NCBI RefSeq assembly: GCF_030551255.1
Contig: NZ_CP130630.1
Span: 3,391,501 to 3,455,500 of the forward strand
Length of the DNA: 64,000 nucleotides
Origin: Streptomyces sp. NL15-2K
Lineage (GTDB): Bacteria; Actinomycetota; Actinomycetes; Streptomycetales; Streptomycetaceae
Reading direction: 5' to 3'
Shown here: piece after piece, positions 18,803 through 52,334 of the stretch
Numbering within the stretch: position 1 is the first letter of the stretch
How the letters are laid out: the number at the start of each line of letters is the position of its first letter
Position numbers and translations under genes: made by a program
The notes under the pieces: model-generated
Told to the model about the DNA's origin: nothing
Databases searched by the model: none
Seen by the model: the letters and a program-made list of their open reading frames with translations, nothing else

Positions 18803-20065
18803 CTTGCACAACGGGCATCACTGGGTGTGGTGCTGCGTTTGCGTCCAGCCCCACCCCGGCGCGTGCGCTCCGGTGGTGGGACGGGGGCCGTTGACTGGGC
18901 CCCGCGTCGCCACAACTCCCAGGCACGGGCCTGGATGTTGCGGGAGCCGTTCCGGTCCGCGTGATCAACGAATCCGCAGTTCCGGCACGCGAACCAGGCC
19001 TGCGAGACCCGGTTCGCCTTGTCGATGTGCCCGCACTCGGCGCAGGTGCGGGAGGTGTACGCCGGATCGACGTACACCACCGGCACACCGGCCTTACGGG
19101 CCTTGTACGCGATGAACGCCCCCAGCTGAGCGAACGACCAGCTGGAGTGGGCGGCCCTCCCCCACTGCCTTAAGGGCGTGGGAGGTACCCCCAGGCTTGC
19201 GAAGCCGTACCCGCTCGCGGATGCCCGTCAGATCCTCCAGGGCAATACCGCGACCGGTGCGTTCTGCCTCGGCCACCACACGTTTCGCGATCTTGTGGTT
19301 GATGTCCTTGGCCCGTCGCGCCTCCTTGCGCCTGCGCTTCTTCAGACGCCGCTTGGCGGACGGGGTGTTCTTCTTCTGCAGCTTGCCGCGCAGCTGCCGT
19401 TCACGGACCCGGCCGCGGTTGAGCTCGCGCCCGGCCATGATCTCCCCGTCGGACGTGGTGGCGATGTTCACGACGCCCAGGTCGATACCGAGGAAGTCCA
19501 CCGGATCGGTGTCCAGCGGCGCCTCGGGCACCTCACAGGTGGCATTGAGAAACCACATGCCGTCCCGGCACACCAGATCGGACTCACCCTTCCGGTACAG
19601 AGCCAGGGTGGCCAGATACTCCGGGGACGCGGTGAACGCCACGTCCTTCATCCGCCCGGCCGTCGTCCAGATCGAGACCCGCCGCTCGGCGATCTGCCAG
19701 GACAGCATCCGGTCGTCATACGGCTGCGCCCCCACCGGCCGGAAAACGACCGGCTTCTCCGTAGCCCTGCGGTACCGCTTCGAGCCGGGTTTCCCAAGGT
19801 TGCCGGCCTTCAGGTTCGCCTTCAGCGTCGCGTACGCGTCACACGTCCTCTTGATCACATGCTGGGCCGCCTGCGCACCCAGCCCCCACCGCGCCTTCGC
19901 CTCGGCGTAGGCGAGCCTGCGCAGCGCGAAGTTGCTCTTCACATCCTCCTCGAAGGCGACCTGACCGGCCCAGGTCGCAGCCTCATTGCAGGCGCGCAGC
20001 GTCGCCTCAAGTGCCGCCGCCTGTACGGGCGTCGGCAAAAGCTTCACCTGCACGACCAGCTTCAT
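18790..20065 (-). pseudogene. tnpB: IS200/IS605-family TnpB, frame broken by a 37-bp repeat
   Basis: TnpB is the RNA-guided nuclease of IS605 elements. The first frame runs from ATG 20065 (MKLVVQVKLLPTPVQAAAL) to a stop at 19094; the second frame, ending at TAG 18790, continues with SSWSFAQLGAFIAYKARKAG then VPVVYVDPAYTSRTCAECGH. The RuvC Asp (FLGIDLGVVN), Glu (IALEDLTGIRER) and final Asp (HADRNGSRN) and the four zinc-ribbon cysteines (CAEC...CRNC) are all intact. Removing the 37-bp insert at 19157-19193 restores a single frame reading RLRKPAAHSSWSF. No tnpA is present. The product is therefore two fragments unless the ribosome shifts; the gene is most likely inactive. Confidence 0.88.
19157..19193. 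mobile_element. 37-bp palindromic mini-repeat inserted in tnpB
   Basis: The block begins CTCCCCCACTGCCTTAAGGG and ends GTGGGAGGTACCCCCA. It is partly self-complementary, and its ends (CTCCCCCACT and [G/T]ACCCCCA) match the block inside fabH at 51891-51930. Its length is 1 mod 3, which accounts for the tnpB frameshift. I recognise such blocks as dispersed, non-coding elements in Streptomyces genomes. Confidence 0.8.
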
Positions 20066-51266: not shown

Positions 51267-52334
51267 ATGTCGAAGATCAAGCCCAGCAAGGGCGCCCCGT
51301 ACGCGCGCATCCTCGGCGTGGGCGGCTACCGTCCCACCCGGGTCGTGCCGAACGAGGTGATCCTCGAGAAGATCGACTCGTCCGACGAGTGGATCCGCTC
51401 GCGCTCCGGTATCGAGACCCGCCACTGGGCGAACGACGAGGAGACCGTCGCCGCGATGTCCATCGAGGCGTCCGGCAAGGCGATCGCGGACGCGGGGATC
51501 TCCGCCGAGCAGATCGGCGGCGTGATCGTCTCGACCGTCTCGCACTTCAGCCAGACCCCGGCCGTGGCCACCGAGATCGCCGACAAGCTCGGCACGGCGA
51601 AGGCCGCCGCGTTCGACATCTCGGCGGGCTGCGCCGGCTTCGGCTACGGCCTCACCCTCGCCAAGGGCATGATCGTCGAGGGTTCGGCGCAGTACGTCCT
51701 GGTCATCGGCGTCGAGCGGCTGAGCGATCTGACCGACCTGGAGGACCGGGCGACGGCCTTCCTGTTCGGCGACGGCGCCGGCGCGGTCGTGGTCGGCCCG
51801 TCCGAGGAACCGCACATCGGTCCGACGGTGTGGGGTTCGGAGGGCGACAAGGCCGGAACGATCAAGCAGACCGTACCGTGGGACGAGTACCTCCCCCACT
51901 CTCGACTTCGCTCGAGCGGGGGGACCCCCACGGGGGACGTCGACAAGCTTCCGCTGGACAGCGAGGGCAACGTCAAGTTCCCCGCGATCACGCAGGAGGG
52001 CCAGGCGGTCTTCCGCTGGGCCGTGTTCGAGATGGCGAAGGTCGCGCAGCAGGCGCTGGACGCGGCCGGAATCACCCCGGGCGACCTGGATGTCTTCATC
52101 CCTCACCAGGCCAACGAGCGGATCATCGACTCGATGGTGAAGACTCTCAAACTGCCGGAGCACGTCACGGTCGCCCGCGATGTGCGCACCACCGGCAACA
52201 CCTCGGCCGCCTCGATCCCGCTCGCGATGGAGCGGCTCCTGGCGACCGGCGAGGCGAAGAGCGGCGACACCGCGCTCGTCATCGGATTCGGGGCGGGTCT
52301 CGTGTACGCCGCGACGGTCGTTACCCTCCCCTAG
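51267..52334 (+). CDS. fabH: Beta-ketoacyl-ACP synthase III, with mini-repeat insertion
   Basis: 355 residues from ATG 51267, with AAGGAG upstream. The catalytic triad is intact: Cys122 (DISAGCAGFGYGL), His280 (VFIPHQANERIID) and Asn311 (TTGNTSAASIP). It starts fatty acid chains by condensing an acyl-CoA (branched in Streptomyces) with malonyl-AcpP. Residues 209-222, LPHSRLRSSGGTPT, are extra: they are encoded by a palindromic element inserted between WDEY and GDVDKLPLD, in frame. The enzyme is essential in Streptomyces, so the insert must be tolerated, probably on a surface loop. Confidence 0.95.
   Translation: MSKIKPSKGAPYARILGVGGYRPTRVVPNEVILEKIDSSDEWIRSRSGIETRHWANDEETVAAMSIEASGKAIADAGISAEQIGGVIVSTVSHFSQTPAVATEIADKLGTAKAAAFDISAGCAGFGYGLTLAKGMIVEGSAQYVLVIGVERLSDLTDLEDRATAFLFGDGAGAVVVGPSEEPHIGPTVWGSEGDKAGTIKQTVPWDEYLPHSRLRSSGGTPTGDVDKLPLDSEGNVKFPAITQEGQAVFRWAVFEMAKVAQQALDAAGITPGDLDVFIPHQANERIIDSMVKTLKLPEHVTVARDVRTTGNTSAASIPLAMERLLATGEAKSGDTALVIGFGAGLVYAATVVTLP
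51891..51930. mobile_element. 40-bp palindromic mini-repeat inside fabH
   Basis: CTCCCCCACTCTCGACTTCG followed by CTCGAGCGGGGGGACCCCCA. It contains the hairpin CTCGA..TCGAG and shares its ends with the block in tnpB at 19157. With the two following bases the added length is 42 nt, keeping the frame. Confidence 0.85.

Follow-up and report, generated by a model that had tools for sequence, protein, structure and literature searches.

A small palindromic element of Streptomyces and its probable repeated insertion at one codon of fabH

Small palindromes that stand inside genes are already known, both as REPs in genes and as the in-frame elements of Rickettsia. The Rickettsia palindromic elements (RPE), ~150 bp long according to available passages of PMC10969869, are described there and in available passages of PMC3733652 as small palindromes that occur, in frame, in a wide range of unrelated protein genes. 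The GTAG/CGTC REPs are palindromes of 20-40 bp, most of which are intergenic and some intragenic; the intragenic REPs include those of O. terrae, R. conorii, Xanthomonas recB and others, and in two Xanthomonas species recB has different REPs at nearly the same position (excerpts of PMC3733652). The REPs of E. coli are dealt with in PMC4681348, as far as its available part goes. MITEs and the hairpins derived from IS200/IS605 are a further class of non-autonomous hairpins. Here, a GC-rich palindrome in the fabH gene of a Streptomyces genome is compared with these systems. Probably, it is a REP-like, non-autonomous mobile palindrome of Streptomyces, which has been inserted repeatedly in situ at one codon of fabH, its copies there drifting almost neutrally afterwards.

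The palindrome in fabH and its genomic family

The whole stretch of DNA that was analysed, called the window, has 64,000 nucleotides (C1:3391501-3455500), belongs to a genome of 12.4 Mb and contains fabH (Table 1). The product of this gene has 4ewp as its best match among the PDB FabHs (E 1.4e-102), and Pfam PF08545/PF08541 are listed for it (P0001). An earlier note on this DNA had reported an in-frame palindrome in fabH, which is real: the 40 bp and two further bases make up 42 nt, coding for L209-T222 of a FabH of 355 amino acids, and the bracket pattern of the palindrome was matched by none of 100 shuffles of the window. The same note had spoken of 14 residues being added; the 14 residues are present, but they replace two (R-V, R-I, R-T and the like in empty FabHs), for a net increase of 12 residues (36 nt). 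The triad C122/H280/N311, presumably catalytic judging by the family, is intact, as had been proposed.

Table 1. Positions of features in the window
Feature	Position	Strand	Remarks
fabH (beta-ketoacyl-ACP synthase III)	51267..52334	+	ORF; 355 aa, ATG 51267, stop included
Codon of C122	51630..51632	+	invariant in 33/33 aligned FabHs
Type A palindromic element in fabH (C + TCCCCC...ACCCCCA)	51891..51930	+	40 bp, CTCCCCCACTCTCGACTTCGCTCGAGCGGGGGGACCCCCA
In-frame 42 nt in fabH, coding for LPHSRLRSSGGTPT	51891..51932	+	residues 209-222; empty orthologues have 6 nt
Hairpin 5' arm TCCCCC	51892..51897	+	family consensus folded as single-stranded DNA
Hairpin 3' arm GGGGGA	51919..51924	+	family consensus folded as single-stranded DNA
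Unpaired 3' tail CCCCCA	51925..51930	+	common to type A and subfamily C
Codon of H280	52104..52106	+	invariant in 33/33 aligned FabHs
Codon of N311	52197..52199	+	invariant in 33/33 aligned FabHs
Subfamily C member in tnpB-like gene (minus strand)	19157..19193	+	gene's two parts open in different frames

That the palindrome is a mobile-looking, dispersed repeat was borne out by a genome-wide search for other copies, which gave 70 places (32 forward, 38 reverse) for type A, the type present in this fabH, at ≤3 mismatches from TCCCCCACTCTCGNCTTCGCTCGAGCGGGGGGACCCCCA; 48 of these have no mismatch to the pattern, and the control with the reversed pattern gave 0. The ends of the type A consensus are CTCCCCCA / CCCCCATC, with GTAG and CGTC tags at neither end. 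Type B is a sister type, 3 nt longer than type A. Subfamily C, which has the same ends and a different hairpin, occupies 85 places in the genome at ≤3 mismatches (reversed-pattern control 0). Folded as single-stranded DNA, types A and C form a hairpin and then an unpaired CCCCCA tail, modestly better than shuffles do: the consensus hairpin has a z of -1.55, with 18/200 shuffles as good, and on the other strand a z of -2.24, with 6/200 as good. All six frames are free of stops in types A and B, and subfamily C has stops in two of six; as a special property of type A, six open frames were rejected, because 1507/5000 shuffles are also open in six. A primer holding CTCCCCCAC, in the available part of PMC7480387, is unrelated to the repeat.

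The block that breaks the tnpB-like gene had been said to share its ends with the one in fabH. It does so (CTCCCCCACT and ACCCCCA), but the hairpins differ, and the two are members of two subfamilies. Near-identical flanks of this subfamily C copy occur at two other places (L272 and L274), and the IS carrying it has therefore probably multiplied with the insert on board. At several places, the starts of type A and type C lie ~130 bp apart, like a composite mosaic element. A search of the genome with PF01797 gave one match to a Y1 transposase, in an IS200/IS605 element with tnpB beside it and ~11 kb from the nearest listed copy of the palindrome; no RAYT flanked by these repeats was found in this search, and no autonomous partner was identified by it, PF01797 being the one transposase family covered. 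Within this IS200/IS605 element (L039), tnpB lies at 104-1426 on the minus strand (a frame of 440 aa), and tnpA is open, with the PF01797 match at ~1501-1863 on the plus strand.

Positions of the copies and the bases they replace

The surroundings of type A were sampled in 60 regions other than fabH; 8/70 places, fabH included, are not among them. Grouped by their flanks, the 60 copies fall into one group of 27, another of 9, and 24 singletons. The two groups (within L087-L146; 36/60 copies) are longer interspersed repeats, to the larger of which L104 was linked by a match judged to be probably due to chance. By open frame and third-position GC, 12/60 copies lie in frame in a CDS-like open frame, namely 10 of the 24 singletons, L104 (CopA-like), and L122, a doubtful case from the large group. 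Among the copies with unique flanks (24 singletons, L104 and fabH), 12/26 are in frame in coding-like regions, a rate not far under that of the control, in which 341/600 positions were CDS-like by the same criterion. Against this control, the idea that subfamily C is just as coding-friendly was discarded, 40 copies sampled from its 85 places giving 1 weak case. The coding share varies with the test, as the strict coding test scored 6/60 copies, 4 in frame and 2 shifted, and 149/600 control positions, 146 in frame and 3 shifted. The two that look frame-shifted (L115, L128) were counted against frame-preserving insertion.

All 8 of the 8 forward copies (fabH, L095, L100, L106, L110, L136, L138, L142) use the frame LPH(S/A)RLRS(S/R)GGTP; the reversed copies L105, L120 and L125 read WGSPRSSE(A/V)ESGG, and the reversed copy L104 reads MGVPPLERSREWG. 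Pfam identified four of five host proteins as a sigma factor (region 4), a MerR regulator, a GDSL hydrolase and an ABC ATPase, the fifth having no match; the names CopA, GNAT, GH2 and TnpB (for L104, L120, L125 and L136) come from reading the sequence, not from a family scan. A G follows CCCCCAT in L105, L125, L139 and L141, so that the right end makes ATG, which in L141 may start the next gene.

Comparison of filled genes with empty orthologues or best matches gave +36 nt at 6/6 coding sites (fabH and the genes for an ABC ATPase, a GDSL hydrolase, a CopA-like ATPase, a sigma factor and a GNAT-like protein), ~40 nt standing where ~4 stood; for type B in fabH, the figure is +39 nt. Since the net length is a multiple of three, the reading frame is kept wherever the element lands. 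No target-site duplication was seen in the six empty/filled comparisons, ~4 bp being lost instead. In the orientation of the element, the commonest empty site is C[GNNN]C and the filled site is C[T...T]C, with a core of 40 nt, and the swap would best be described as C[GNNN]C to C[core]C. The empty-site GNNN is, in the above order of genes, GGAT, GGGA, GCCC, GCTC, GCTA and GCTG; the GCTC site of the CopA-like gene needs one further C-to-T change in the filled gene, and the last T of the core is C in fabH, where this genome's copy ends in ACG, and in this genome's own sigma copy. As judged from these alignments, the replacement rule is not strict, because the fabH codon of empty genes is CGN in 17/24 and AGG, CAC, GCC or AAG in 7/24, the nearest empty relatives of type-B carriers (L051, L053) have His at the insert codon, and four type-B rows (three distinct) retain CAC at the left end.

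The codon occupied in the ABC-ATPase gene is a second recurrent one, being filled in 3/23 rows shown from other genomes (L148 in G026, L149 in G022, L162 in G021), one of them B-like and decayed. The site in region 4 of the sigma factor is filled in 2/15 rows shown at ≥60% identity (L223 in G009, L224 in G014), one of which has a codon fewer, and the codon in the GNAT-like gene in 3/24 rows shown, all decayed; the corresponding figures are 0/24 rows shown for the GDSL gene and 0/24 for the CopA-like gene. The hexamer CGNNNC was rejected as the sole cause of the hot codon, as it occurs much too often (91 times in fabH, counting both strands). The frequent targeting of the fabH codon may reflect a longer or structural target, or there may be few sites at which insertion is tolerated. 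The element could also be protein-safe, in that its machinery would swap ~4 bp of CGNNNC for a core that has a net length of a multiple of three and is open in six frames, would home repeatedly, throughout the genus, on particular conserved sites in coding sequence (the fabH loop, for example), and would thereby supply loop peptides to core enzymes; this is a doubtful possibility.

The fabH loop and the history of its inserts

From the sequence alignment with PDB FabHs, by which the loop was placed, the insert appears to lie in a loop of variable length: FabH of M. tuberculosis (1m1m) aligns on both sides of the loop with 8 residues between, versus 30 here. Streptomyces FabHs have short loops (8-11 residues after Trp), loops of 20 residues and longer ones (L055-L063; P0115). 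Active-site loops of FabH can be disordered, according to excerpts of PMC9979976. The structure that AlphaFold2 predicted from FabH and 33 close homologues was poor (mean pLDDT 54).

Of 149 other genomes drawn evenly, all 149 have FabH, and the loop is longer in at least 5 (G144, G080, G092, G143 and G087, the last strongly diverged), a lower bound, since loops were read in the 29 best and 18 more matches and otherwise taken from match lengths, and many matches break at the loop. A loop-directed search gave 49 FabHs, 32 with an insert, and a whole-protein search gave the best 120 of 7998, both favouring carriers; in the 122 FabHs pooled from these two carrier-biased searches, the loop has 28-33 residues in 61, 20 in 54, 21 in 6 and 9 in 1, and most of the 61 long loops are recognisably the element. 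When one genome of each species was scanned for the pattern, 17 named Streptomyces carriers of type A or type B were found. Two FabHs that are both labelled S. tendae (the species labels of FabH proteins being the sources' own), the carrier P0021 and the empty P0094, differ in one residue outside the insert. The suggestion that the 14 residues are unique to this lineage does not hold, for the insert also occupies this codon in other Streptomyces, and the carriers are not a single clade; nor is the segment present in all related FabHs, carriers being a minority.

A tree was built from the DNA of 65 fabH genes without their loops (43 empty, 14 type A and 8 type B, carriers having been over-sampled by design). 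The state of the insert changes no fewer than 12 times on this tree, and for 10 of these changes well-supported branches leave no alternative; such counts do not separate gain from loss, and gain is the reading adopted here. A single clade is rejected by AU tests for type A (p-AU 3.3e-6), type B (5.6e-35), A and B together (7e-97), and seven near-pristine type A rows (5.4e-133, with 6 changes; two of these rows are identical). The inserts have between 1 and 15 mismatches to the family consensus. Position, frame and orientation are common to the carriers, strongly diverged forms (L012, L016) exist, and so do shorter loops (e.g. P0059-P0061, P0065-P0067, P0074, P0078-P0081), as might be expected of one old insertion in an ancestral fabH that was inherited vertically and lost in most lineages. 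Such a history is very unlikely, given the rejection of one clade and the number of changes on the tree, the presence of near-pristine copies on 6 tree changes when others have 14-15 mismatches, and the sisters L082 and L085, which bear type A and type B, respectively; moreover, losses would need to restore an ordinary two-codon sequence, e.g. CGC ATC.

The scatter of carriers on the tree could also have arisen if short fabH tracts with the insert had spread through lateral transfer and homologous recombination. Streptomyces recombine, which favours this explanation, as does the comparison of whole flanks (~480 nt upstream, up to ~420 nt downstream), in which the nearest gene is that of another carrier for 14/22 carriers (4 in identical pairs), that of an empty relative for 7, and a tie for 1, a pattern that counts against insertion in situ. 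In addition, L084 and its empty sister L019 have 5 differences in the 60 nt upstream, and no bin at a greater distance has as many. Close to the insert, the picture is a different one: within 60 nt on each side of the 18 carriers without an identical twin, the empty gene is nearer in 10 and equally near in 6 (together 16/18), and a carrier is nearer in 2, and the carrier/empty pairs L076/L035 and L079/L053 have 0 differences in the upstream 60 nt. As five other genes have the same kind of insertion, insertion in situ happens anyway, and short-tract transfer is considered unlikely.

Copies of type B are present elsewhere in 6/7 type-B hosts (≤3 mismatches), G175 having one match in all. Counting type B only, B hosts have 1 to 15 copies, and the A hosts G174 and G144 have 22 and 18; as A hosts also hold type B, the type in fabH does not follow from the type resident in the genome.

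The tree and the near flanks point to repeated insertion in situ at one codon of fabH. In the proposed mechanism, a REP-like, non-autonomous mobile palindrome, made up of a hairpin TCCCCC...GGGGGA and a tail CCCCCAT, would insert in situ again and again at the same codon; copies in fabH would persist owing to a variable, permissive loop and to a net length that leaves the frame intact, and each insert would then drift as a nearly neutral loop.

Constraint on the insert and comparison with known elements

The earlier note had regarded the repeat as exapted into a core enzyme, with a possible change of a surface loop or of acyl-CoA preference. Under true exaptation, the loop, or a hairpin in the fabH mRNA, would have been selected for a function (acyl-CoA choice, partner binding or mRNA control). 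Recurrence at one codon is in keeping with this. In type A inserts, first and second positions vary by 0.332 per codon versus 0.240 for third positions (per site 0.166 versus 0.240), so that third positions still vary more per site, as exaptation would have it; the type A flanks (80 codons) have 0.151 versus 0.226 per codon. Type B is near its consensus (1-5 mismatches/45), with 0.187 versus 0.057 per codon in the inserts and 0.054 versus 0.155 in the flanks, and G143 has no copy within 1 mismatch other than that in fabH. The per-site ratio of first and second to third positions is, however, 0.69 (A) and 1.6 (B) in the inserts, compared with 0.33 and 0.17 in the flanks, carriers are a minority, and positions 51700-52150 had no match in Rfam up to E = 1. 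By these ratios, the flanks are under far stronger constraint at the protein level than the insert, where such constraint need not be nil, least of all in type A. Exaptation is thus not supported and is rated as quite unlikely; the loop is drifting or shrinking in some FabHs, and FabH seems to tolerate the insert rather than to use it. That third positions of type B are less diverged than the flanks fits recent insertion, constraint on the hairpin being less likely.

In many lineages, the fabH genes form a natural series at a single codon of a core enzyme, from empty through a pristine insert to a drifted loop. With this series, the frequency at which selfish DNA turns into protein sequence can be measured, and the targeting of small palindromes can be tested. 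The fixed net length and the replacement of a few bases constitute a testable fingerprint of the mobilising enzyme. For annotation, the series is a warning that length differences of 12 residues among Streptomyces FabHs need not be functional.

No published account of this repeat in Streptomyces, or among in-frame palindromes, was found in a search of papers open without subscription, supplements aside, and the main text of PMC12306157 and of PMC3733652 does not mention Streptomyces. In-frame insertion in unrelated genes is shared with the RPE, as 12/60 sampled copies and fabH show (L122 doubtful), whereas the Streptomyces element differs from them in having 40 bp, a GC-rich sequence, a net +36/+39, and one codon filled in many lineages. 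With the GTAG/CGTC REPs, it shares the form of a 20-40 bp palindrome in high copy (70 places), with modest hairpin z-scores, but it has neither of their tags, and no REP-flanked RAYT was found in the PF01797 search. Like MITEs and IS200/IS605-derived hairpins, it is a non-autonomous hairpin, in a genome with one IS200/IS605 element; unlike in MITEs, no target duplication is seen, ~4 bp being lost at six sites. Compared with all of these, what seems to be new is that two types of element repeatedly fill, in frame, the same codon in a core gene, and that a few bases are replaced with a fixed net length.
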